From IMG/VR virus record IMGVR_UViG_3300009373_000585, positions 1-39,818 of that record: a DNA stretch of 39,818 nucleotides. The stretch is one strand, 5' to 3'. The first letter of the stretch is position 1, and every line of letters begins with the position of its first letter. Both the position numbers and the translations under genes were made by a program. Origin of the DNA: a virus. Under the pieces are notes generated by a model. That model did no database searches and was not told the DNA's origin. It saw nothing but the letters and a program-made list of their open reading frames with translations. Below, piece after piece: positions 1,224 to 37,561 of this stretch.

Positions 1224-1916
1224 CTATTTGCCTCTTAATACCTCTAATTGCGTTACTTTATCTCTACTCTGAAAATCCATAATAAATATATCGTTTACCT
1301 CTGGGACTGTCTCAAAGACTTCGACCAAGCCTTTCTTCTCAATAACCTTCTGAGACATCCTACCATGATGATAGCGCTCATCTCTCTCCCAGAACGCTTC
1401 TCCGTGGTCAGTAGTAATATATACTTCCCATCCCTTAAATCTTCCAAGCAGCATCTGGATCCGTGGTATACATTCTCTTGTTCGTTGATGGTATGCCTCA
1501 AAAAGTTCTTCCTTCCTATCATCTGAAATACCACCTACCCAAGATATAGGCTTCGACTTCCCGACATCATCAAAGTAGTTATGAATATAGTAATCATGAA
1601 CTACCAATAAAGTATTCCCTTTTTGTTTATCTAAGTCTGGCAACACTCCGGCCTTAAACAAAGGAAACATAGTAGTTGCGTTGTTGTAGTCGTATTTATA
1701 CTTGCCAAAAAAAGCTCCAGCAAATCCACCGCCTGTTACAATCGCTTTATGGCCTTTAAATTCATTTATAGCCTTAGCAAAGTGCGGAAAACAGGTAATC
1801 GTACAAGCCCCTATCGCCTCAATCTCATGGAACTTGGCCTCAGCAAAAGCAGGAGCTAAGATCTCTTTTGCTACATCCCGCCGCAAGGTATCAAGTATAA
1901 TGACTAATCTTTTCAT
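1224..1916 (-). CDS. Alkaline phosphatase/sulfatase superfamily protein (230 aa)
   Basis: The N-terminus MKRLVIILDTLRRD matches the first metal-binding strand of the sulfatase/phosphatase superfamily (Asp9, Thr10). A Thr-Ile-Thr-Cys segment near residues 39-42 lies where the catalytic Ser/Thr/Cys is expected. TTDHGEAF (Asp170, His171) and the later His183-His184-Gly supply the usual second metal site. These enzymes hydrolyse sulfate or phosphate esters or transfer phosphate-bearing groups. At 230 residues it is about half the length of typical sulfatases, so it is a compact version. The ATG at 1916 is preferred: the longer frame overlaps the previous gene, and this start lies four bases after that gene's stop. 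Substrate is unknown; the glycosyltransferase nearby suggests a glycan. Confidence 0.6.
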   Translation of the reverse strand: MKRLVIILDTLRRDVAKEILAPAFAEAKFHEIEAIGACTITCFPHFAKAINEFKGHKAIVTGGGFAGAFFGKYKYDYNNATTMFPLFKAGVLPDLDKQKGNTLLVVHDYYIHNYFDDVGKSKPISWVGGISDDRKEELFEAYHQRTRECIPRIQMLLGRFKGWEVYITTDHGEAFWERDERYHHGRMSQKVIEKKGLVEVFETVPEVNDIFIMDFQSRDKVTQLEVLRGK

Positions 1917-1920
1917 AGAA

Positions 1921-2166
1921 TTACCCAAAGAAAAATACCTTTCCGTAAGGCGCTGCACTTAGGGTCTGCTCTCTTATGATGCTCTCACGTATACTGTCAT
2001 TTGACAAAAACTGCTTCGCAAAATGTGAGGAGTCTACCTGAATAACCTCAACCTTTGACACGCGAGGCTCTTTATAGGCCAATGCCATTTCAGGCGAGAA
2101 TACTAATCTCGCCGTAACCACTGCGATCACTACTTTCTTTTTAATGTGGCTTCGCTTTTGAGTCAT
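1921..2166 (-). CDS. Hypothetical protein, possibly a remnant (81 aa)
   Basis: A hydrophobic strand (VVIAVVTARLVF) is followed by a mixed, polar region ending GKVFFFG. The start at 2166 overlaps the end of the glycosyltransferase gene and has no ribosome-binding site; a GTG about 12 codons later is an alternative. The opening strand resembles the first beta-strand of a nucleotide- or sugar-binding fold, but no motif follows. It could therefore be a broken piece of a transferase or a genuine small protein. Its stop is four bases before the sulfatase-like start, so it is probably cotranslated with it. Confidence 0.4.
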   Translation of the reverse strand: MTQKRSHIKKKVVIAVVTARLVFSPEMALAYKEPRVSKVEVIQVDSSHFAKQFLSNDSIRESIIREQTLSAAPYGKVFFFG

Positions 2167-17525: not shown

Positions 17526-18659
17526 TTACACCTCCACCATTTCGGTTATGTCTTTCTTCAATAAACCCTCAAATGCCTCTGCCCATAGATGTACTTTTTT
17601 GTCGGCGTTATGGTTCTCGTAGACGTTATCGTATGCCCTCTCTGCCAATCTCTTCCTTAGCCCCCTGGACTCAATAAGCTCTACCATCTGGTTGTACCAG
17701 GCATTCTTCGTATTCTCGACCAGAACGCCATCTTGTCCGTTTGTGATTACTGGCGTATAAGGTGGAATATTCGAGGCTATTGTGGGGATCCTCATAGCTG
17801 AGTATTCAAAGTATTTGATAGCCGACTTCTTCCTATTGAAATCTGTATCTGTAAGTGGGCATAACCCTATGTCCAGGTTGAGACACGCCAGCTTGTACGG
17901 GTACGCAGCATGAGATACCCAAGAGTGCCATTCAAGTTGCGCTTGAGGTATATCCTTAAAAAGACCATGAAAGCGCACATCACCAAAGTACACAAACTTG
18001 ACATTCTTGTATTGCTTGGCAATTCGTTTTATGACAGGCGCTACCATGAAGAGATCCTCGTAATGGCTACCCCCGCCCTGCCATCCGATCCGGATCTCCT
18101 TTTTAACCATCTCAACTTTTGGAAAGATGCTAAAGTCTATAACATTCGGCAGTACAACGGTGTTCTTATTGAGCTTCTTGAATGTCTCGGCCAAGAGTGG
18201 CGTGGTGGTAGATACCATGTCCACCTTCTTGAATGACGCCTTGAAATAGTTATGCCTGCTGATATTCTTCTCAATATGAAAGTTATCCTCGCCATCGCGC
18301 CAAAGAGGGATGACATCACCCTCTTCTGTCTCGCGGAATTGCTCCTCAGTGCCCCAGTATCTATAAGACTCGTTCCAAGGGCTCACATTAAAGGGATCGT
18401 CATCGTAGTCAGCGACTATGAGCTTACCGTGCTTCCTGGCCGTTTTAATAAAGTTAAGCCATGCTGCATCAGCCGGGCGCTGGAATACTATGATCTCGGA
18501 TTCCATGATCTTCTGGTTGACAAACTCCAAATCCACCACATTATCCGGATGTATAGTCAGAATGTTCGCCTTCTCATGCTGGAGTAGCTTATAAAGCGGT
18601 TGTACGATCCGGTAATGGTTACATGCCCCACGATTACGTTCAAACCCCAGTATGCGCAT
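17526..18659 (-). CDS. GT4-like glycosyltransferase (377 aa)
   Basis: It opens MRILGFERNRGACNHYRIVQPLYKLLQHE, the first strand and glycine-rich loop of GT-B enzymes. It continues with VVLPNVIDFSIFP before KKEIRIGWQGGGSHYEDL, the linker into the nucleotide-binding domain, and has KYFEYSAMRIPTIASNIPPY then TPVITNGQDGVLVEN near residues 280-315, the acidic motif that contacts the nucleotide-sugar. Length is normal for the family. The reaction is transfer of a hexose or similar sugar; acceptor unknown. The ATG at 18659 is chosen because AGAGGAGGCAG precedes it; a TTG ten codons earlier is possible. It overlaps the kinase-like gene by 20 bases. Confidence 0.8.
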   Translation of the reverse strand: MRILGFERNRGACNHYRIVQPLYKLLQHEKANILTIHPDNVVDLEFVNQKIMESEIIVFQRPADAAWLNFIKTARKHGKLIVADYDDDPFNVSPWNESYRYWGTEEQFRETEEGDVIPLWRDGEDNFHIEKNISRHNYFKASFKKVDMVSTTTPLLAETFKKLNKNTVVLPNVIDFSIFPKVEMVKKEIRIGWQGGGSHYEDLFMVAPVIKRIAKQYKNVKFVYFGDVRFHGLFKDIPQAQLEWHSWVSHAAYPYKLACLNLDIGLCPLTDTDFNRKKSAIKYFEYSAMRIPTIASNIPPYTPVITNGQDGVLVENTKNAWYNQMVELIESRGLRKRLAERAYDNVYENHNADKKVHLWAEAFEGLLKKDITEMVEV

Positions 18660-19662
18660 ATTGTTCTGCCTCCTCTGCTTGGTATTCAAACTCCTTAATT
18701 ACCTTTTTCATGCTAAAGTTGTCATCCCATCCCCAGCTTGCCTTATAAGGTTCACCCAGGCACATTGGCGGCCTATCTGGGGGATCATCCTTGAGGCGTG
18801 CCCAGCCAAAGTCGATCAGCTTTATTACGCCATCCTTGACCATAAGGTTGTTAGGAGTTATGTCTCTGTGCTCTACGGCATGAGCGCGTAGATCCTGAAT
18901 TATCTCGACGAGCTGTTTTCTCCAGTCCGGAGGTAACTTTTGAGCCGTTACCATCTCACCACAGTCCTCAATTTCAAGATGCTCCATCTTGCAATCTTGA
19001 TGATTGAACTTTACTTGCGGGAAATGCCTGGAGCTGCACTTTGACAGGATCCTACACTCATTCTCGATAAGGCTATAATCAGAATAGGCCGTTTGCTTCT
19101 TTATGACCTTGCCGTTCTTCCTTTCAACAGTAGACGTCGCACCTTTGAAATATTGATTGAAGCGACCCACCGTAGGATCCACTGGCTCCACCCAGCCCAC
19201 GCCTGAGTCCTTTAGGGCGCTTAGGAGATCTTCGATGGAGGCATCCCCAAGCCAGCGCTTGTAGTCATCGGAGACATAGTTCTTGTGATGTACCGCATGA
19301 TACCCCAGCGCTATCAGGAAAAGCTCCTTTGCTGGTATATAAAACCCTTTCGGTGTCTCCTGGCGTGTCTCAAGGATTGCTTCCTGGAAGGCTCTCGGAT
19401 AATAGCGATCACCTATGGAGCGCACATCTACATAAATATAGGTCTTGCCGATGGGTAGCTTGAACTGCACACGCGGGGAGGGATATGTCCGCGTGGCATT
19501 GGGGAAGATCTCCGTCCAATGGTCTAAGCTATAGACCAGGAGGTCGAGGTCGGAGTGCTCTCCCAACTGAACCCCGTCCGGCAGGTTTTCCCAGTTGCGT
19601 AACACGACATACGGAAAATCCACGTCATTCATAAATTGAAAGAATTGCTTTAGACTCTGCAT
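18640..19662 (-). CDS. Nucleotidyltransferase-kinase fusion protein (340 aa)
   Basis: Residues 1-160 look like a nucleotidyltransferase: GEHSDLDLLV (Asp38, Asp40) and a third acid in YIYVDVRS (Asp79). Residues 165-330 are a compact protein-kinase-like fold: VIKKQ supplies the ATP lysine (188/189), LIENE the helix-C glutamate, HRDITPNN (265-272) the catalytic loop and IDFGWA (284-286) the metal aspartate. All key residues of both parts are present. Kinase-like enzymes of this size phosphorylate sugars or proteins; with a GT4 downstream and a WbqC-like gene upstream, a sugar or glycan substrate is likely. The domain pairing is unusual in phages. The start has AAAGGGCACC upstream. Confidence 0.7.
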   Translation of the reverse strand: MQSLKQFFQFMNDVDFPYVVLRNWENLPDGVQLGEHSDLDLLVYSLDHWTEIFPNATRTYPSPRVQFKLPIGKTYIYVDVRSIGDRYYPRAFQEAILETRQETPKGFYIPAKELFLIALGYHAVHHKNYVSDDYKRWLGDASIEDLLSALKDSGVGWVEPVDPTVGRFNQYFKGATSTVERKNGKVIKKQTAYSDYSLIENECRILSKCSSRHFPQVKFNHQDCKMEHLEIEDCGEMVTAQKLPPDWRKQLVEIIQDLRAHAVEHRDITPNNLMVKDGVIKLIDFGWARLKDDPPDRPPMCLGEPYKASWGWDDNFSMKKVIKEFEYQAEEAEQYAHTGV

Positions 19663-19670
19663 GGTGCCCT

Positions 19671-19862
19671 TTATTTTTTGTTTTCGTCGAGCTTATGATC
19701 TCCACACCAATCATTAGGGAATACGACCGGATAACCATTCATAGTAGGAGCATGGCGCCGGCAGCGTCCCAGTTTTGTCTCTCCCTTTTCATTCTTTTTT
19801 GCCACATACCACATGCACGTCGAGCAACTCATACCTTTACTGCGATGTACCCAGGGATCCAT
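19671..19862 (-). CDS. Small cysteine-rich protein (63 aa)
   Basis: Four main cysteines are placed as SCSTCMWY, GRCRRHAPT and DWCGDH, with His residues near, which should bind one zinc or an iron-sulfur cluster. The pattern C-x2-C, then GRCRRHAPT, then PVVFPNDWCGDH is seen in many small phage proteins of unknown function. The start has AAAGGAGGAAAAC upstream, nearly ideal. It overlaps the end of the preceding small gene by 26 bases and lies between that gene and the fusion kinase. No function is recognised. Confidence 0.65.
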   Translation of the reverse strand: MDPWVHRSKGMSCSTCMWYVAKKNEKGETKLGRCRRHAPTMNGYPVVFPNDWCGDHKLDENKK

Positions 19863-20028
19863 GTTTTCCTCCTTTTTCTATTCTGCAACGCATAACACCT
19901 ATCGCAAATTTAAGACGTTTCCAAAAGCTCGCGTTTGCAAGGATCTCTTTAAGCAGGCGCTCCGTGTTTTTGCGTGCTTCCTGCCTGGCTTCCTTCTTCA
20001 TCTTTCTTGCCAGCTTCTTGTATTTCAC
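19837..20028 (-). CDS. Small basic amphipathic protein, GTG start (63 aa)
   Basis: Residues 1-30 are a very basic helix (KKLARKMKKEARQEARKNTE), followed by an amphipathic segment ASFWKRLKFAIGVMRC like those in small phage proteins that sit on membranes, then a polar tail. The start is GTG at 20028 with CAGGAG about ten bases upstream. It overlaps the end of the WbqC-like gene by 80 bases in another frame, so one of the two ends is under relaxed constraint. Function is unknown. Confidence 0.5.
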   Translation of the reverse strand: MKYKKLARKMKKEARQEARKNTERLLKEILANASFWKRLKFAIGVMRCRIEKGGKHGSLGTSQ

Positions 20029-20563
20029 TCTTTTTAACTCCTGCGTTAAGTATGTTCGTAGTTTTCTCTATACCGAACTCGTTAAACATCTCAAAAACGC
20101 TCTTTCTGTGGTTGCTCTTAAAAGGCACAAACTTAATACCGTTTTCCTCAAGCGCTTTGAGATCCAAATAGCGCTCCGGCGCCTTATGGTCTGCCAGGTA
20201 CTCATCGGCCTCGTAGAACTTCAAGATCTCGATCAGCCGGGCTGTGGACTTAGCATCTGTCTGAGGAGGAGGTTCAAACCGAATCTTGGCCGGGTTTACC
20301 CCCAACGTCTTTGCAATCGCGACAATCCAGCCCAGATTGACATCAACCAAATTCTGCCCATCCGCGTAATATTTGTCCAAGATCGCAGTCATGCCATGCC
20401 GAATAGGCTTAGTCCACCACTTGCCATTGACTTGACATCGGTTTGTAAATCCATTTTTTTCGTATTGGCAATCCACTAAAAGAATAAACAAATCACATTG
20501 TGCCATTTTTTCGAAGAAACAAAACCAAGGTATAAAATTTGGTTGGTGAATAGCAACCCTCAT
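19949..20563 (-). CDS. WbqC-like protein (204 aa)
   Basis: The N-terminus MRVAIHQPNFIPWFCFFEKMAQCDLFILLVDCQYEKNGFTNRCQV matches the WbqC family signature (HQPxxxPW, then D, then FxxRxxI) of O-antigen gene clusters. These proteins are thought to act in nucleotide-sugar or glycan biosynthesis, but their exact reaction is poorly known. RHGMTAILDKYY and FVPFKSNHRKSVFEMFNEFG fit the remainder of the family. The last 30 residues are polar and low in complexity, overlapping the next gene, and look like an extension. An HNH gene is joined to its start (ATGs overlap by four bases). Confidence 0.75.
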   Translation of the reverse strand: MRVAIHQPNFIPWFCFFEKMAQCDLFILLVDCQYEKNGFTNRCQVNGKWWTKPIRHGMTAILDKYYADGQNLVDVNLGWIVAIAKTLGVNPAKIRFEPPPQTDAKSTARLIEILKFYEADEYLADHKAPERYLDLKALEENGIKFVPFKSNHRKSVFEMFNEFGIEKTTNILNAGVKKSEIQEAGKKDEEGSQAGSTQKHGAPA

Positions 20564-21006
20564 GTCTTTCCTCTCCCGTCAAAAACTATATCTGTTAATC
20601 TTGTTCTTTTGCCTGCTTCAAATTTACGATGAATCGATTGGTTTTTGAACGCCATAAGATTGTGAGGGCGATTATCGTTGGTAACTTTATTGATATGATG
20701 ACATACCTCAAATCGATGCAAATAGCGACCTATCTGTTTTTCTACGATAAGGCGATGCTCACGTACATAACCGTCTCGGTTATGAGGATGATTTCGTTTA
20801 AGGATTAAAATATATCCATCTTTATCCTTGATTTCGCCATTCTTATAGTGGGGTGAAGTTTCTCCCAATAAATGTACTCCATAAAAATGATTATTCTTTC
20901 CAGTCATATCTGGTCTCTTTTTTCCTTGTAGCTTCTTTCCTATGTCAGGTCTTTTTTTACCAGCCCAATATCCCGGCTTCGTGCGCTCGTAAACTCCTTT
21001 AGGCAT
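20560..21006 (-). CDS. NUMOD-HNH homing endonuclease (148 aa)
   Basis: The N-terminus (PKGVYERTKPGYWAGKKRPD, then GKNNHFYGVHLLGETSPHYK) is NUMOD-like and basic. The nuclease follows as DGYVREHRLIVEKQIGRYLHRF, then VCHHINKVTNDNRPHNLMAF, with the His-His-Ile-Asn core and Asn-Asp-Asn-Arg. It has no zinc ribbon, unlike its relative at 13232-13780. The gene is wedged between the acetyltransferase and the WbqC-like gene, touching both (stop/start overlap). It therefore appears inserted without disturbing translation. It should cut sites in related phages lacking the gene. Confidence 0.85.
   Translation of the reverse strand: MPKGVYERTKPGYWAGKKRPDIGKKLQGKKRPDMTGKNNHFYGVHLLGETSPHYKNGEIKDKDGYILILKRNHPHNRDGYVREHRLIVEKQIGRYLHRFEVCHHINKVTNDNRPHNLMAFKNQSIHRKFEAGKRTRLTDIVFDGRGKT
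20714..20751. repeat. 38-bp direct repeat, copy 2 (HNH gene)
   Basis: Identical to 13380-13417, at the equivalent position in the second HNH gene. Flanking sequence on both sides diverges, so only the core coding for the LIVEKQIGRYLHR segment is fully shared. Confidence 0.85.
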
Positions 21007-21488
21007 TATCTTTTCCTCCTAAACTTGGCCGGATTGCCACACCAGACCTCATTTTCGCCAATATCGTGCGTTACAACGCTACCAGCGCCTATTAGAGCCC
21101 CTTTCTTTATCCGAACACCGGGAAGTATGGTACTTCCGGCACCAATAGCCACGTCATCCTCTATTACAGTGTGTTTCCAGTTTGGTTTCCCGCTTGGCGG
21201 ATACTTGTCATTTGTAAAGGTAACTCGCGGAGCAATAAAACAGTTGCTCCCGATGCTCACACATTCCGGAATAAAACAGTGCGCCCCGATCCGGTTATAA
21301 TCCCCTATCTCAACACCATCCCCTATCTCGGTGTAGGATCCTATGGAGTTACACCTACCGATCCTGGCAGTCGGGTATATGTTTGTGAAATACCAGATCT
21401 GGTTACAAGCCCGCAGGGATAACCTGGCTTTTAAGGTCTTTATTAAGAGCCAGTATTTCCCGAAGATGTTTTCCCACAAATTGTTCAT
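21006..21488 (-). CDS. Hexapeptide-repeat (left-handed beta-helix) acetyltransferase (160 aa)
   Basis: From residue 38 the hexapeptide rhythm is clear: ARIGRCNSIGSYTEIGDGVE, then IGDYNRIGAHCFIPECVSIG. A loop with TNDKYPPSGKPNWKHTVIED precedes VAIGAGSTILPGVRIKKGAL, as in sugar O- or N-acyltransferases of the WbbJ type. GAGSVVTHDIGENEVWCGNPAKFRRK is the usual end. It should transfer an acetyl group from acetyl-CoA to a sugar. GGAG lies seven bases before the ATG. The first 28 codons overlap the dehydrogenase-like gene in another frame and precede the coil, so they may be a recent extension. Confidence 0.85.
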   Translation of the reverse strand: MNNLWENIFGKYWLLIKTLKARLSLRACNQIWYFTNIYPTARIGRCNSIGSYTEIGDGVEIGDYNRIGAHCFIPECVSIGSNCFIAPRVTFTNDKYPPSGKPNWKHTVIEDDVAIGAGSTILPGVRIKKGALIGAGSVVTHDIGENEVWCGNPAKFRRKR

Positions 21489-22176
21489 TCATGATCTCCA
21501 TTGCTGGGAGCACGCAGTGCCCGCCAATCGCTCCCTTTGGAGGATCCAGTACCATCTGCATATGGTCTGTGCCCTCCATCTCTTTGACCGTTTTGTTAAG
21601 CGTACGGAGGTACGTCTTGAGGTCGTTGTACTTAACCCCCATGAGGTCGCAACAGGTCTGGGCGTACCTGGCAAATTCTATATTCATGCCATATTGCACC
21701 AAACTCAGGAGTTTCAGGAGCTCCGTCGTCGTAGTGGATGCAAAGAATCCGAATCTCAAACCTGTCCTGTTCAAATAGTTCTTTACCGTAACCCAGTCCT
21801 TGCAGTCATCAAAGCCTATGAATAACTTATAGTTCGCAATGCACTCCGCCATGTGTCTGTGTGTCCCCAGGATCGGGACATGTACGATATGCGAGCGGAT
21901 CGTCCCATTCCAGAGCGACGTCCTCAGCTTATTGGTTGTCCCCACGGGGCAGGTTGTATGGATCATTACCAGCTCTGGATCATAGTCGTTCATATACTCA
22001 AGTGTTTTAGTATGGAACGTGGTACTGTAAGGATAACAGACGTGCATGACATCGACCTTATATGGTGTCTCTCCCTCTACGTCTTTGGTATCTATGCCAG
22101 GATAATATTTATTGAATACTTTATAGACGGCTCTGCCAATCTCACCCATTCCTATAACGATAACCTTCAGTCCCAT
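21403..22176 (-). CDS. Nucleotide-sugar dehydrogenase-like protein (257 aa)
   Basis: VIVIGMGEIGRAVYKVF (residues 5-21) is a Rossmann NAD-binding loop. HTTCPVGTTNKLRTSL is the second segment of the UDP-sugar dehydrogenase NAD domain, and KLLSLVQYGMNIEFARYAQTC resembles the long dimer helix. GAIGGHCVLPAMEIMNE near residue 220 matches the active-site loop GIGGHCIPVDP of UDP-glucose/UDP-N-acetylmannosamine dehydrogenases, keeping the catalytic Cys. At 257 residues it lacks most of the C-terminal UDP-binding domain, so it may use a different substrate or be non-oxidising. It overlaps the acetyltransferase gene by 86 bases. Confidence 0.7.
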   Translation of the reverse strand: MGLKVIVIGMGEIGRAVYKVFNKYYPGIDTKDVEGETPYKVDVMHVCYPYSTTFHTKTLEYMNDYDPELVMIHTTCPVGTTNKLRTSLWNGTIRSHIVHVPILGTHRHMAECIANYKLFIGFDDCKDWVTVKNYLNRTGLRFGFFASTTTTELLKLLSLVQYGMNIEFARYAQTCCDLMGVKYNDLKTYLRTLNKTVKEMEGTDHMQMVLDPPKGAIGGHCVLPAMEIMNEQFVGKHLREILALNKDLKSQVIPAGL

Positions 22177-22916
22177 TTAATACCCCTTCCTACTTCAGCG
22201 TAATATTGTCGATGATTTTCTGTCTTTATATGATCCGGATGAAGCCCTGACCAGTGCCCTATATCCTGAGCCATGATTGTCGGCACCCATCCTATTATCG
22301 GATCCTTCTCGATCTTAATCTGCTCCATAAGATTAGCGCCGCCCTTGATACCCACCAAGTTGTAGCGCTCAAACTCCAGATCAGAAATGAGATCAGCATA
22401 CATAAGCCATAGCCCTACAATGTGCGTGGCCGGAAGAAAACCCCAGCCTTCCTTGTCCGGGAGCCCAAAGCGCCTGGCCGGACGCGACGGTACATAGTCA
22501 GGTGAGAGTACCTGAGCCGGAGAATTAGCGAAGATCTTGAGCATATTATTAAGCCAGTTTCGAGGCATACGCACATCATTACCTATGATCCCGATCATGT
22601 CTAACCTGAGTGCCTCAGACTTCTCAAATGACCTTACCCAGTCAAAGAAGTCTATGACTGTCCGTCTCAAGCCTTGATTCAAGCGATTCAGAATCGTGTA
22701 TTTCATGCCGTACTTCCCCCCGGATCCCAGCTTACAGTCCCTCAAAAACTGTATTGTCCCATCATGAGAAGCGTCATCTACCATTACGAAAGTTACGTCC
22801 CTGTAATCTTGTGCCTGCTCAAGAGCGTGGACGCACTGTTTCGTATATTCGATTCTCTTGTAACAGGGTAGCAGTATCGCTATTTTTAAGTTTTCTATCG
22901 GCTTCTTTGAACGCAC
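22167..22916 (-). CDS. GT2-type glycosyltransferase, GTG start (249 aa)
   Basis: AILLPCYKRIEYTKQCVHAL (residues 13-32) and FVMVDDASHDGTIQFLRDCK (43-62) are the first two motifs of GT2 enzymes, and IGIIGNDVRMPRNWLNNMLKI holds the acidic metal site (GND). HIVGLWLMYADLISDLEF and PTIMAQDIGHWSGLHPDH follow as acceptor-side motifs. The start is GTG with GAGGTGGT upstream, and the first 33 codons overlap the preceding gene. Substrate unknown; the neighbours suggest a surface glycan. The end of the gene overlaps the dehydrogenase-like start by ten bases. Confidence 0.8.
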   Translation of the reverse strand: MRSKKPIENLKIAILLPCYKRIEYTKQCVHALEQAQDYRDVTFVMVDDASHDGTIQFLRDCKLGSGGKYGMKYTILNRLNQGLRRTVIDFFDWVRSFEKSEALRLDMIGIIGNDVRMPRNWLNNMLKIFANSPAQVLSPDYVPSRPARRFGLPDKEGWGFLPATHIVGLWLMYADLISDLEFERYNLVGIKGGANLMEQIKIEKDPIIGWVPTIMAQDIGHWSGLHPDHIKTENHRQYYAEVGRGIKWD

Positions 22917-23337
22917 TCGATACCACCTCGTAATCGTCTATGCTTAGTTCGATCCTGAGATCTCTGATCTTCAAGTGTATATAGTATTGATCCCTTATGT
23001 CGGCACCCTCAGAGAAGATCTTGTCTTTGTTGAAATTGTAGAGGTTCCGGTTTAGGTTGATCTGTACGTTGTCGTTTACCGGATCCATAGCAACCTTCTT
23101 ACGGCAGAGCTCGATATGCTGTCCCGGCTTGGCCTCAGGGGATCCCCGCTGCTGCCAGCGCTGGAAAGCAGCAATCATGCCCCTGGCAAACTCCATGAAA
23201 TCGCCTCTTGATAAACTGATCCTCAGATTGCGATAATGGACGTGCATCTTCTCGCAGACCTCGACCACCAGCCTGTTGTTGAATACCGACTTCTCGGAGA
23301 TTTCCTTACCCGCTAATTTTTTCAGTGTTTGTCCCAT
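22819..23337 (-). CDS. Conserved protein of glycan clusters (172 aa)
   Basis: The central segment CEKMHVHYRNLRISLSRGDFMEFARGMIAAFQRW is of a kind that turns up next to glycosyltransferases in environmental phages and bacterial sugar clusters, but I know no function for it. His and Arg in MHVHYRNLR may be functional. The C-terminal third is a mix of strands and helices (YYIHLKIRDLRIELSIDDYE). Its last 33 codons overlap the GT2 gene in another frame. No membrane segment is present. Confidence 0.5.
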   Translation of the reverse strand: MGQTLKKLAGKEISEKSVFNNRLVVEVCEKMHVHYRNLRISLSRGDFMEFARGMIAAFQRWQQRGSPEAKPGQHIELCRKKVAMDPVNDNVQINLNRNLYNFNKDKIFSEGADIRDQYYIHLKIRDLRIELSIDDYEVVSSAFKEADRKLKNSDTATLLQENRIYETVRPRS

Positions 23338-23371
23338 GCTTACTCCCGATACTATCCATCACCCATTTTCC

Positions 23372-23545
23372 TTATGCTATTTTGTATTTGGCTATGATCC
23401 TATCGTAGATGTCCTTATACCTTACAGCGTTGACATCCGTGTTGCCCCACTTTCCAGTTGTCGCATCAGCAAACCCTCTGACAACTGCCCAAAGCAAAAA
23501 CTTGGGAGGCAGTTTCCATACAATAAACATGATAAACTTTTCCAT
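23372..23545 (-). CDS. Small conserved phage protein (57 aa)
   Basis: The product begins MEKFIMFIVWKLPPKFLLWA and continues VVRGFADATTGKWGNTDVNA, then VRYKDIYDRIIAKYKIA. The order LP-x5-W-x2-R-x4-ATTGKW is characteristic of a small protein common in many tailed phages, of unknown role. The ribosome-binding site is strong (GAGGAGGAACG before ATG 23545). It fills the gap between the 173-residue gene and the glycan-cluster protein. Confidence 0.65.
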   Translation of the reverse strand: MEKFIMFIVWKLPPKFLLWAVVRGFADATTGKWGNTDVNAVRYKDIYDRIIAKYKIA

Positions 23546-23554
23546 CGTTCCTCC

Positions 23555-24076
23555 TCACTTCATGTTGATAAGCTCTTTTACGCCCTGGTAGTGCACTATG
23601 ACCTTATTTAAGAGCCCTTGCGGATCGTCCCCGCGCATAATGCCCTTCATGAATGAGCGCCAGATCTTCTCGTTCTTCTCAGCCCAAAACTCGCGATATA
23701 CCATGTTAGTCATAAACATATAGAGCTCACGCGGTATGTCGTAGTCCACCATCATCGTCTTGTTGTTTGACCAACCCTTCTCATTCCCCATAGCCCTGAG
23801 CTCTTTACGCTTGAGCCAGTTGACTCTTCTTGTCTCTTGGCATAGCTTGGGAAAGTTATGGAGCTTGGACTGTACAAATTTATCCGCGACCCGGCGTATA
23901 AATAGCTCTGTATTCTGTAATGGGCTCTCAGAGTGAGTCTTTAAGACCTCCTGGACTGCGTGAGTACGGATGTCCTCATCCGAGGTGTTCTGCTTCCTAT
24001 ACGCCTCTTCGCCCGCAACCTTCTTCGTTGCTGACAGCCCCTCATCCCGTTTAAACTTGGTATCGGCTTTATTCAT
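23555..24076 (-). CDS. Hypothetical protein, helical and basic (173 aa)
   Basis: No family is recognised. The product is soluble, rich in Lys, Arg and Glu, with LFIRRVADKFVQSKLHNFPKL and VYREFWAEKNEKIWRSFMKG as helical stretches and a polar N-terminus. The start overlaps the methyltransferase stop (ATGA), so the two are translationally coupled. It could be a substrate-handling partner in the sugar cluster or an internal virion protein. Confidence that it is a real gene is high; its function is unknown. Confidence 0.6.
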   Translation of the reverse strand: MNKADTKFKRDEGLSATKKVAGEEAYRKQNTSDEDIRTHAVQEVLKTHSESPLQNTELFIRRVADKFVQSKLHNFPKLCQETRRVNWLKRKELRAMGNEKGWSNNKTMMVDYDIPRELYMFMTNMVYREFWAEKNEKIWRSFMKGIMRGDDPQGLLNKVIVHYQGVKELINMK

Positions 24077-24630
24077 CGTCTCACGCCTTTACAGAAAAAC
24101 CACTCCGGGTAATACCTGAGATTCAGGCATATATCTACTTTCAAAAGATTGAAGTACCTATTTAAGATGTCGGTCTGCAACGGGAAGGCTCTGATGTGCC
24201 CCTCGCACATGAAGCGCGGTACACTGAATATGACTGTGGCGCCCTGTTTTATATTATTTATGACTGCAAAATCGTTCTTGATATGCTCCAGGACTTCGAG
24301 CAATATCGCCACATTGTAGTCGTGTTTATAGCACTTGGGATCCAGCGCATCCCCTACAAAGAAATGCTGAGGAGTGAGCTTAGTCGCGATAGCAACAGCC
24401 TCTCGTGAGAAGTCGAATCCATGATAATTCCGTACCCCTTTGTCGTATAGGTAGTGCCCCATTTGTCCGGCGCCAGAACCGATCTCAAGGACTTTGGGCT
24501 CTTCGATGGCTTTAACGTGTTTAACGACATGCTGCATGATCCGGTAGAACGGGAGCGTCCGGTAGTGCGCATGATATATCGCCTCCTTCTTATAGACCTC
24601 ATCATAATCTTTTGCTATCAGTGTTTTCAT
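24073..24630 (-). CDS. Class I SAM-dependent methyltransferase (185 aa)
   Basis: LEIGSGAG (residues 48-55) is the SAM-binding motif I, with YHGFDFSREAVAIA as the acidic end of strand 2, FFVGDALDP as motif II and YNVAILLEVLEHIKND as motif IV of the UbiE/SAM family (LEHI). VIFSVPRFMCEGHIRAF completes the fold. Substrate unknown; placement at the head of the sugar cluster suggests a sugar or glycan methylation. The frame is open to 24735 inside the capsid gene; ATG 24630 is taken as start because the hallmarks follow it, though it has no clear ribosome-binding site and lies just behind a G/C hairpin. Confidence 0.8.
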   Translation of the reverse strand: MKTLIAKDYDEVYKKEAIYHAHYRTLPFYRIMQHVVKHVKAIEEPKVLEIGSGAGQMGHYLYDKGVRNYHGFDFSREAVAIATKLTPQHFFVGDALDPKCYKHDYNVAILLEVLEHIKNDFAVINNIKQGATVIFSVPRFMCEGHIRAFPLQTDILNRYFNLLKVDICLNLRYYPEWFFCKGVRR

Positions 24631-24642
24631 ATGAAAGGGGTG

Positions 24643-24663
24643 GGAGGGGTGGTTAGCCCCTCC
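24643..24663. terminator. G/C-rich hairpin after the capsid gene
   Basis: GGAGGGG (24643-24649) and CCCCTCC (24657-24663) pair perfectly over seven bases around a seven-base loop. It lies between the capsid stop and the methyltransferase start. No run of U follows on the minus-strand RNA, so it is probably not an efficient terminator. It could stabilise the capsid message or slow polymerase before the sugar cluster. A very similar hairpin stands at 35488-35513. Confidence 0.4.
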
Positions 24664-24679
24664 GTTCCCGTCCTTTCGG

Positions 24680-25606
24680 TTAGCTGATAGCTCCAGAGCT
24701 ATCCAACTGTGCCTGCTCAGCGTGTGCCTTCTCATTACCGAATTGTAGAGTCATCTCGCCCTCTACCCAGCCCTTGACCGAAGATGCGGTCGGCGCACCC
24801 TTGTAACTCTGGATGTCGCGCAACACTGCGACCTTGATCTGTTCTGGCGTGGTAATGGCTAAACGGGCAACTGGTATGTGCCTGTTCGGTATAATATCAA
24901 CAGTACCAAAGGCACCTTCGTACTTGTTGATATTGGCAATCGCTTGCCTGGTCGAGGCTTCGATGTTGAAGGTGAAGCCTGTTTTTGCGGAGAAATTCTT
25001 AGAGATTACTCTCTTCTGGTAGCCTCCGCAAATGAGCGCCCTGGGATCTCCCCCGGCGTCCCAGACCTCCTGGAGCCTGGCATTGACAATATCCTCAGTG
25101 AGCTGGGAAATAGCTGCACCTGAGGCACCGTCCGTACCGAGTCCGGTGTTGGTCTTGATGGCCTTCAGCAAGCCCATCGCTGTACGAGCCGTGTTCGATG
25201 CACCAACCGCTGTGGTTCCGGTATTGACAAATATCTTCTCAAAGTCTGTGCCGAGCTCTTTGAGCGCCTTCATCAGTTCCCTTGCCACATCGTCCTTGAT
25301 ACCTGCTGTGGTTACTGCCATCTGGGTGAATGACACATCCCAATTCCTAAGACGGATATGCGTGTAGTTCATCCGCCTCGTCCTGACGGCTCTGGCTGAA
25401 TACGATAATGCTGCGCCTTCCACGATGCCAGTTGTTGCAGCACTGGCGAGGTTATCAACCTGCCATTCGTGCTTCGTGGAAATCGACTTGATCTTCCTGC
25501 TCATGGACAACAATGGCGTGTCGTCCGCAAAAAGATCGGCTACTACGTTAGTGAGACCTTCTCGGTTCCCTATGGTTACATAGGTATCGAGATAGGTGTT
25601 TGCCAT
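24680..25606 (-). CDS. Major capsid protein, SU10/DUF5309-like HK97 fold (308 aa)
   Basis: The N-terminus (TYVTIGNREGLTNVVADLFADDTPLLSMSRKIKSISTKHEWQVDNLA) matches the start of SU10-like major head proteins, with the same Thr-x-His-Glu-Trp segment and the following acidic loop. RRMNYTHIRLRNWDVSFTQMAVTT and the helix ARELMKALKELGTDFEKIF belong to the HK97 fold. The end KVAVLRDIQSYKGAPTASSV, then EGEMTLQFGNEKAHAE is normal. It forms the icosahedral shell. The gene follows the scaffold gene after 18 bases and has AAAGGAGCTAACAC before its ATG. Length is in the usual range. Confidence 0.85.
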   Translation of the reverse strand: MANTYLDTYVTIGNREGLTNVVADLFADDTPLLSMSRKIKSISTKHEWQVDNLASAATTGIVEGAALSYSARAVRTRRMNYTHIRLRNWDVSFTQMAVTTAGIKDDVARELMKALKELGTDFEKIFVNTGTTAVGASNTARTAMGLLKAIKTNTGLGTDGASGAAISQLTEDIVNARLQEVWDAGGDPRALICGGYQKRVISKNFSAKTGFTFNIEASTRQAIANINKYEGAFGTVDIIPNRHIPVARLAITTPEQIKVAVLRDIQSYKGAPTASSVKGWVEGEMTLQFGNEKAHAEQAQLDSSGAIS

Positions 25607-35538: not shown

Positions 35539-35637
35539 TCACGCAGGCTTACCTTCCTGCTTGCCCTGGTCTGCGCCTTCCTTCTTCTCTTCGCCTGGCT
35601 TCTGCTCAGTGCTTTCTTTGTTTTCTCCCTCGAACAA
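35539..35637 (-). CDS. Mini-protein, Lys/Glu-rich, TTG start (32 aa)
   Basis: After the acyl carrier gene a TTG at 35637 with GGGGGTG six bases upstream opens a frame reading as FEGENKESTEQKPGEEKKEG, then ADQGKQEGKPA and TGA. It is highly polar and could be disordered. It begins two bases after the carrier stop. The coding signs are a fair ribosome-binding site and the fit into an otherwise empty gap; the composition alone is not proof. Confidence 0.35.
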   Translation of the reverse strand: MFEGENKESTEQKPGEEKKEGADQGKQEGKPA

Positions 35638-35638
35638 T

Positions 35639-35908
35639 TTAATCACCCCCTTTCTTTTCAATGTATGTTACAAGCTCCCCGATGGTTTTAAGTTTCTCTG
35701 CATCTTCATCGGGAATAATTAAGTTTGCAAACTTCTCCTCCATCATCATCAACATCTCTATGCTATCGAGGGAGTCTAATCCGAGATCTTCTTCAAAACG
35801 CGCACTATCTGATAGTTTGCCCTCCGGCAGACTCAGACTATCCCTCAGCACTTCTCTTACCTGCTCGGCGATCCTACCTCTTCTTGTGCTGCTTGTCTTT
35901 TTTTCCAT
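35639..35908 (-). CDS. Acyl carrier protein (89 aa)
   Basis: FEEDLGLDSLDSIEMLMMMEEKF is the acyl-carrier signature; Ser46 in Asp-Ser-Leu is the phosphopantetheine site, and IPDEDAEKLKTIGELVTYIEKK is the usual last helices. A basic N-terminus (EKKTSSTRRGRIAEQVRE) is longer than in standard carriers. The gene should be charged by a host phosphopantetheinyl transferase; it carries acyl groups for fatty acid, lipid or acylation steps. It overlaps the coiled-coil gene by 35 bases and has GAGGAAAA before the ATG. No acyltransferase or ketosynthase is in the window, so it may work with host enzymes. Confidence 0.9.
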   Translation of the reverse strand: MEKKTSSTRRGRIAEQVREVLRDSLSLPEGKLSDSARFEEDLGLDSLDSIEMLMMMEEKFANLIIPDEDAEKLKTIGELVTYIEKKGGD

Positions 35909-36149
35909 CTTTTTCCTCGACAGGTTCTTCCGGCTGCTGGCGCTGTAACTCTAAAATTCCCCCGTTTATAGAGACGAGTTGCTGTTCCACCACTCTCATT
36001 TCGTTTTGCAACTTGGCGCGATACTCCTGTAAGCGGGTTGCCTCCGCTTGCAACTCAGCGATCCTCCCCTGCTTATACTCATCGTCAAAGGCAAGCGCCA
36101 TCTGACAAATTAATATGAGCATAACGCCTATTACAATACCCCTCTTCAT
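35874..36149 (-). CDS. Exported coiled-coil protein, spanin-like (91 aa)
   Basis: Residues 1-20 (MKRGIVIGVMLILICQMALA) are a signal peptide or anchor. Residues 25-70 form a coiled coil (GRIAELQAEATRLQEYRAKL, then QNEMRVVEQQLVSINGGILE). The tail is Pro, Glu and Lys-rich. It directly follows the RlpA-like lysin, in the position of Rz-type inner-membrane spanins after lysin genes. The match is architectural; i-spanins keep the anchor, and here cleavage after Ala20 is possible. Its end overlaps the acyl carrier gene. Confidence 0.5.
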   Translation of the reverse strand: MKRGIVIGVMLILICQMALAFDDEYKQGRIAELQAEATRLQEYRAKLQNEMRVVEQQLVSINGGILELQRQQPEEPVEEKDGKKDKQHKKR

Positions 36150-36162
36150 GCTGCCCCCTTTC

Positions 36163-36603
36163 TTATTTGACTCTCTCTATCTCAACTGGTATGACACCGT
36201 CATCCAGGTCGCCGATCTCAGCAAAGGCAGCCTTTGTCAGATCCACAATCCTGTCTGATAGGCTCCGGTTGCCATATGTCCTCGCACCACCCCAGTCATT
36301 GTGCCGGACAATGACTGACTTGCCATTCTTTGTGTTCTTGACCCTGTAATAACCTCCGAACTGGTATGACCGCATCGCGCATGTCATGGCGTTCTCGTTA
36401 AAAGGTTCCCCACTGGCCGTCGTTTTGTGCTCAAAAGGATCAGTGGGGTCGTCTGAGCTGTACCAAGCCGCGTACCCGGCCACTCTCTCCGGGTAGGAAT
36501 ATGTGGCGTTGATGTGCACGGCCAGTCCGAAGGCTCCAACGGTGCACACGATCGATAAGACTGCTATCACATTGATTAGGTTGAAACAATACTTTCCACC
36601 CAT
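36163..36603 (-). CDS. Membrane-anchored RlpA-like muralytic protein (146 aa)
   Basis: Residues 10-32 are a membrane segment, then GYAAWYSSDDPTDPFEHKTTASGEPFNENAMTCAMRS and YYRVKNTKNGKSVIVRHNDWGGARTYGNRSLSDRIVDLTKAAFAEIG form a double-psi beta-barrel of the RlpA kind. The key Glu66 (ASGEPF) and Asp103 (HNDWGG) are present. RlpA enzymes are lytic transglycosylases acting on peptidoglycan lacking stem peptides. With a membrane segment instead of a cleavable lipobox it could be a signal-anchor endolysin. AGGGGGGTGCG precedes the ATG. The next gene is spanin-like. Confidence 0.8.
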   Translation of the reverse strand: MGGKYCFNLINVIAVLSIVCTVGAFGLAVHINATYSYPERVAGYAAWYSSDDPTDPFEHKTTASGEPFNENAMTCAMRSYQFGGYYRVKNTKNGKSVIVRHNDWGGARTYGNRSLSDRIVDLTKAAFAEIGDLDDGVIPVEIERVK

Positions 36604-36611
36604 CGCACCCC

Positions 36612-36827
36612 CTATGTGTTTATGGCTTCAATCACTTTTTTGAGATTGAGGTTATCTACCTGCTGAGTGTATATCTCTCTGGCCGTTCTAACCTCTGTGT
36701 CCTTTTTTATTACATAGGCATATTGTGGATCTTCCTTGCTATCAAAATTCTCTTTGTCGTGGATTTTGTGCCACTCTTTGACATCTTTAACTTCCATATT
36801 GGTCTGCTCTATGGTGATTTTATACAT
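36612..36827 (-). CDS. Hypothetical early protein (71 aa)
   Basis: The product is polar, with a beta-like start (YKITIEQTNMEVKDVKEWHK), then AYVIKKDTEVRTAREIYTQQVDNLNLKKVIEAI. No family is recognised. ATG 36827 has GGAGGGAAGTG upstream and overlaps the TGA of the replication gene (TGATG). It is nine bases before the RlpA-like gene. Function unknown. Confidence 0.5.
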   Translation of the reverse strand: MYKITIEQTNMEVKDVKEWHKIHDKENFDSKEDPQYAYVIKKDTEVRTAREIYTQQVDNLNLKKVIEAINT

Positions 36828-37561
36828 CACTTCCCTCCTTTCATTTTAGCCGCGGTTTCGCTTACCATCTTGGCCACCTTTGGATCATGTCGCCTTCCCG
36901 CGGGTTGTTTATAAGCGCCAATGGGTGATCTCAGTTTGGGTGGCTGTACCTTCATTCCCGGATCTATCCGGTTAAGCCAGTTCACTATAAACCGCTTTGT
37001 CTTTTTCCTGCCCGGCTTTGTAAGTAGCCAAGCGTCCATCTTTGCTGATTCTATATCTATATCTATATGCCGATAGGCAGGGTTTGTTTTTAAAGCCTTT
37101 AAGAAAGATGCTGTTGGCACGGTACTTGCATCCTTCTCCTTCTCCATTCCCTTTTCCATTCCCTTTTCCAGCGGTTTACCACCGTTAGGTAACGGTGGCT
37201 TAACCGTTAAGGCACTTTTTGGAGGCTCAGGGATCCCAGAATCGCGCTCTGTATGATGTGGCCTTTGGTGCTTGTGCCATTCAAGGATTTGTATAACCCC
37301 TTGACCTTCAACAACATAGCGAAGTATGAAAGGCTTACCACTGGAAGCTTTGGGTTTTGTAAGGGAAAGGAGACCTGCTCCAATGTCAACTTTGTCGTAA
37401 GGAAAGAGCTCGACCTTGATGCGTTTCGGCCTATCCTCTAATCTCCCCTCTTTATCAGCCAACACCCAAAGACCCGCGTACAGTAACCGGATCCAATAAG
37501 GTAGGTCTGCGAGATCTTCATCCCTAAAAAAGTCCGGCTTGAGGTATCGTATTCTTGGCAT
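36827..37561 (-). CDS. Phage replication protein, initiator-like (244 aa)
   Basis: The start PRIRYLKPDFFRDEDLADLPYWIRLLYAGLWVLADKEGRLEDRPKRIKVELFPYD and IQILEWHKHQRPHHTERDSG are conserved in phage replication initiator/organiser proteins with a winged-helix N-terminus. A Pro-rich linker precedes a C-terminal region (SFLKALKTNPAYRHIDIDIE, then AWLLTKPGRKKTKRFIVNWL) that may bind a helicase loader. It lies after RecT and before the lysis genes. AGGAGG precedes the ATG. No helicase is in view, so the host's is probably recruited. Confidence 0.7.
   Translation of the reverse strand: MPRIRYLKPDFFRDEDLADLPYWIRLLYAGLWVLADKEGRLEDRPKRIKVELFPYDKVDIGAGLLSLTKPKASSGKPFILRYVVEGQGVIQILEWHKHQRPHHTERDSGIPEPPKSALTVKPPLPNGGKPLEKGMEKGMEKEKDASTVPTASFLKALKTNPAYRHIDIDIESAKMDAWLLTKPGRKKTKRFIVNWLNRIDPGMKVQPPKLRSPIGAYKQPAGRRHDPKVAKMVSETAAKMKGGK

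Follow-up and report, generated by a model that had tools for sequence, protein, structure and literature searches.

Judged by its sequence, one gene of an SU10-like tailed phage encodes an acyl carrier protein (ACP) of the AcpP type, the type that serves fatty-acid synthase, and the annotation of this gene is sound. The gene occupies positions 35639..35908 on the minus strand of the window, by which we mean the entire 39.8-kb viral contig analyzed here, which may be a fragment. The most likely role of this ACP, to which we assign a probability of about one-half, is that of a host-derived auxiliary gene product: an AcpP-type carrier that is activated by the host and that alters host acyl flow.

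The identity of the 89-residue protein, which carries Ser46 in the motif DSLDS, emerged from family matches. Specifically, the ACP passes the cut-offs of the Pfam PP-binding profile PF00550 (6.9e-13, 49.1 bits, cut-off 20.8) and of the NCBIfam equivalog TIGR00517 “acyl carrier protein” (77.3 bits, curated cut-off 70.45), and it matches PHROG 5934 “acyl carrier protein” over nearly its full length (8.7e-15, residues 9-86). Given these three matches, the open reading frame, which has an ATG start at 35908 and a GAGG a few nucleotides 5' of it, is a genuine one rather than a product of chance. A PDB sequence search returned 103 distinct sequences, with an Aquifex ACP at the top (1e-17), and identity to Escherichia coli AcpP is 41% over 71 residues. 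The AlphaFold2 model, computed from an alignment with 43 viral relatives, is a four-helix bundle (helices 6-25, 46-59, 67-72, and 76-86; mean pLDDT 85.7). The best Foldseek matches to the model are bacterial ACPs, including the Thermus ACP 1x3o (TM 0.92 by target length, 0.83 by query length), and the model can be superposed on ACP structures determined with AcpS, FabZ, FabD, FabG, or FabI as the bound partner. Thus, the original prediction of a convincing carrier protein, with DSLDS, Ser46, and full helices, is borne out by the family cut-offs, the alignment of Ser46, and the four-helix model.

Ser46, the counterpart of Ser36 in the alignment with E. coli AcpP, is the predicted site of phosphopantetheine attachment. 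Counting from the ATG at 35908 places its codon at 35771..35773 (minus strand). In alignments, the phage ACP retains, besides Ser36, the residues that constitute the acidic recognition face of E. coli helix II (Asp35, Asp38, Glu41, Glu47, and Glu48) and the pocket residues Phe50 and Ile54 (E. coli numbering). Compared with E. coli AcpP, helix II harbors the substitutions L42M, V43L, A45M, L46M, and E49K, and one residue is inserted after helix II, before the IPDED segment. In E. coli ACP, L42M permits growth and weakens binding to SpoT and to fatty-acid enzymes (PMC3340395). The Ser is invariant in all nine aligned phage ACPs, that is, the window protein and eight others. The motif used in our alignment-based IMG/VR scan requires Ser, so conservation was judged on a tblastn-derived set: seven of the eight other proteins came from tblastn with no motif requirement, and the remaining one, from contig L011, was obtained via the Pfam profile and also keeps the Ser. 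Loss of Ser46 in relatives, which was named at the outset as an outcome that would overturn the carrier assignment, was not seen in these nine proteins. The invariance of Ser46 suggests, at the level of sequence, that the activated form matters.

The phage has SU10-type capsid and portal proteins, and its ACP gene is part of a densely packed early region, with replication/recombination genes on one side and the terminase on the other. On the minus strand, the genes leading to the ACP specify an exonuclease, a RecT-like protein, a replication initiation protein (36827..37561; PHROG 16167, 2.2e-39), a small protein, an RlpA-like protein, and a coiled-coil protein. The RlpA-like protein is a 146-residue putative lysin with a double-psi beta-barrel (DPBB) domain (36163..36603, minus strand; PF03330, 9.3e-15; TIGR00413 rlpA below cut-off). 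The coiled-coil protein, encoded by the gene immediately upstream of the ACP (35874..36149, minus strand), has 91 residues; by eye, it begins in the manner of a signal peptide and resembles a coiled coil, and it matches no family in Pfam or PHROG. After the ACP come a possible open reading frame for 35 highly charged residues (35539..35646, minus strand, from frame translation), with a GTG start that overlaps the ACP stop and no PHROG match, then genes for a basic 97-residue protein, a Cys/His-rich protein of 146 residues, a membrane protein, and a PHROG 874 protein, and, later, the terminase. Concerning the neighbors originally listed, the RlpA-like (PF03330) and replication/RecT genes are confirmed, whereas the gene called “spanin-like” has by-eye features and no family match. 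The claim that the ACP sits in the early region with no lipid enzyme beside it also stands: neither a ketoacyl synthase (PF00109) nor an ACP synthase/phosphopantetheinyl transferase (PF01648) was found anywhere in the 39.8-kb record, possibly a fragment. Loading of the ACP would therefore depend on host enzymes. By these two profiles, the record thus shows no fatty-acid synthesis genes, which usually accompany bacterial acpP and are not required for family membership. Searches of the window for tRNAs and Rfam RNAs were negative.

The Ser resides at position 46 in the window ACP and at position 37 in the commonest viral ACPs, which indicates an N-terminal extension of about nine residues. The first 12 residues carry a net charge of +4 and the remainder a net charge of -11. 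Most of the basic N-terminus is encoded in a 35-nucleotide overlap between the ACP start and the end of the upstream gene (35874..35908, minus strand; from the open reading frame coordinates and the sequence). This stretch is A-rich and is read as basic residues in both frames, so the basic ACP tail needs no special function. In the AlphaFold2 model, the extension is part of helix I, with low confidence for the first residues. Thus, of the extended basic N-terminus proposed to bind nucleic acid or membrane, the roughly nine extra residues and their basic character hold, but a special role is not supported: we found nothing in favor of such binding, and the tail is overlap-encoded and extends helix I.

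Relatives of the ACP are widespread among viruses. The alignment-based IMG/VR scan shows that at least 348 viral contigs encode them; single-sequence IMG/VR scans, one started from the window ACP and one from its counterpart in the Olleya phage, returned no close relative. In a phage collection, tblastn identified 50 records with ACPs, some of which resemble host DNA or are unverified metagenomic fragments and were left out of use, and no individual ACP exceeds about 40% identity to the window ACP over most of the protein. The closest viral ACP, from contig L018, is 49% identical, the maximum over anything found. A genome scan yielded only two planctomycete ACPs, through one shared peptide, which is no indication of host. 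Among the 50 best of the at least 348 ACP-bearing viral contigs, 46 lack a ketoacyl synthase (PF00109); in three of the other four, it lies directly beside the ACP, and these four contigs may be host or mixed DNA. A DPBB/RlpA domain occurs in none of the same 50, so the originally suggested association with RlpA-like lysins found no support among them. The 121 proteins neighboring ACPs in these viral contigs give mixed matches (RusA, RecT, a helicase, exonucleases, small numbers of Rz-like spanins and of sugar enzymes, and a single FabG-like protein) and are, overall, mixed phage genes, not fatty-acid genes. By eye, the protein encoded next after the ACP in L018 looks like a single-strand DNA-binding protein, and in contig L026 a DnaB-like helicase lies upstream of the ACP. 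These arrangements point to early/replication modules as one setting of viral ACPs, not an exclusive one. We note that L018 (5012-5548) and L026 (9813-10292) have a common protein near the ACP (34% identity, 4e-18), and that the L018 copy has no Pfam/PHROG match at 1e-5.

Among eight relatives by terminase and one by replication protein, an ACP is present only in G004 (contigs L005/L011); most of the others are fragments, and therefore ACP loss cannot be claimed. The contig with a 100% terminase match, L002, stops short of the ACP position. The G004 ACP is divergent from that of the window (23-29% identity) and is encoded on the strand opposite to the G004 terminase. Within G004, whose terminase is about 56% identical to that of the window, the ACP-like gene at L011:1423-1653 has ESIQE replacing DSLDS and adjoins, by eye, a gene for a Wzz-like membrane protein.

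Phage ACPs are already known, as a named PHROG family, in annotated phages, and from published descriptions. PHROG 5934, whose profile the window ACP matches from within a phage genome, belongs to the category “moron, auxiliary metabolic gene and host takeover.” Olleya phage Harreka_1, Vibrio phages helene 12B3 and 1.187.O, Brevundimonas phage Bajun, and Caulobacter phage CcrMagneto likewise encode a single ACP, mostly surrounded by small unknown genes, and, as in the window, the Ser is kept and adjacent lipid enzymes are absent. These five phages differ from the window in lineage and in neighbors, with no RlpA-like lysin annotated nearby. With bacterial AcpP (TIGR00517), the window ACP has in common the curated cut-off, the predicted fold, and the DSL site, whereas the roughly nine extra N-terminal residues, the altered hydrophobic face of helix II, the one-residue insertion, and the lack of fab neighbors set it apart. 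Auxiliary acpP genes have been described in Erythrobacter phage R6L, Vibrio phage R16F, Alteromonas phage R22Y, and Rhodobacteraceae prophages (PMC5463345, PMC10152775, PMC11705849, PMC8224337). In three of the Rhodobacteraceae prophages, fabG, acpP, and fabF lie together, whereas the window ACP is alone. The function of phage ACPs has been called unclear (PMC5463345) and hypothetical (PMC11705849), and in the published reports on phage ACPs we found no activity, expression, or phenotype for any of them. One candidate record, H15, was rejected as a source of a phage ACP, its gene order (yceD-rpmF-fabD-fabG-acpP) looking like host DNA. L100 (CAKLQH020000007.1), filed as an Acinetobacter phage, carries the bacterial chromosome genes rpmF-fabD-fabG-acpP in this region. 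Host DNA thus inflates the numbers of phage ACPs that such collections yield. Finally, in Vibrio phage vB_VibM_10AMN (L101:2486-3049), the ACP forms the N-terminal part of a 187-residue protein annotated only as “hypothetical.”

Because the activation site and the recognition face are retained, a host-activated carrier is the most likely reading of the window ACP. The notion is that, following early expression, the host ACP synthase would attach phosphopantetheine to Ser46. The extra ACP could then join host acyl-transfer traffic (fatty-acid elongation, phospholipid, lipid A, and lipoate) and, during infection, the level or the balance of that traffic would shift. Membrane synthesis could be stimulated or, alternatively, slowed by competition with host AcpP. 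This role is favored by the passing of TIGR00517, by the conserved E. coli acidic and pocket residues, by the superposition on partner-bound ACPs, by the invariant Ser46, and by the recurrence of viral ACPs among mixed phage genes and, in 46 of those 50 best contigs, without a ketoacyl synthase. The helix II substitutions, the residue inserted before IPDED, and a literature with no shown phage ACP activity count against it.

The main rival explanation, which we regard as tentative, is that the phage ACP chiefly binds host proteins that recognize ACP, such as SpoT, MukB, glycerol-phosphate acyltransferase, and ACP synthase. Such a decoy or regulator could blunt the stringent response (SpoT is a ppGpp enzyme), disturb chromosome packing (MukB), or make the host produce lipids more slowly. 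In E. coli, an excess of apo-ACP is toxic, which we count toward this reading, as we do the fact that the ACP is encoded alone, early, and among replication genes, without fatty-acid enzymes. Moreover, host ACP binds both SpoT and MukB through its helix II (PMC3340395; for MukB also PMC8602292). However, SpoT and MukB occur only in some proteobacteria, to which the host of this phage may not belong, and conservation of the Ser is also expected of a working carrier. A further reading strikes us as highly doubtful: a takeover factor in which host activation is kept and the altered helix II shifts the set of partners, such that the ACP acts on regulators or chromosome proteins of the host and not on lipid synthesis. 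We also judge it very unlikely that the gene is a host acpP recently acquired and of no benefit to the phage. While the presence and position of the ACP vary among the nearest relatives found, and no neighbor recurs beside viral ACPs, the gene is embedded in a packed run of overlapping genes, and its GC content (0.44) is close to that of the phage (0.455). In addition, its product shows only 41% identity to E. coli AcpP and no more than 49% to anything found, yet it keeps the Ser and the acidic face, and ACPs recur across many phages.

Acylation of phage sugars, with the ACP as acyl donor to a phage transferase, appears unlikely and is the weakest of the three functions originally proposed. 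The glycans so decorated would be those of a glycan-type cassette in the late region (17526-24735, minus strand) that encodes group-1 and family-2 glycosyltransferases, a kinase-domain protein, a WbqC-family protein, a hexapeptide transferase, and a methyltransferase. In keeping with this idea, the glycosyltransferases, hexapeptide transferase, WbqC-family protein, and methyltransferase are present in the window, a nucleotide-sugar epimerase/dehydratase-like gene directly follows the ACP gene in another contig (L035:5995-7268), and 2 of the 121 ACP neighbors match an epimerase family. However, the only candidate acyltransferase is the hexapeptide transferase (21006-21488), which lies 14 kb from the ACP and best matches sugar N-acetyltransferases of the NeuD/PglB/VioB type (81.6 bits, below cut-off), with LpxD/LpxA matching more weakly. 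NeuD/PglB/VioB-type enzymes depend on acetyl-CoA. A search of 44 other contigs with an ACP found WbqC in none of them, and the record contains no ketoacyl synthase to make a special acyl chain.

Hundreds of viral contigs carry stand-alone ACPs, in most cases with no ketoacyl synthase and, where this can be judged, with the activation site kept. The general question, which is easy to test, is how a single carrier protein benefits a phage. The window ACP is a further instance, from an SU10-like phage; it is an ordinary member of a known auxiliary-gene class and introduces no new principle. Elsewhere in the record, the protein encoded at 1224-1958 (minus strand) has a PglZ-domain match (2.5e-06) that, at 28 bits, narrowly exceeds the Pfam cut-off of 25, and it has no NCBIfam or PHROG match. 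Contig L035 has HNH-type proteins in common with the window. Finally, the gene order of the glycan-type cassette, located some 11 to 18 kb away from the ACP gene, is largely kept in the related contig L003.
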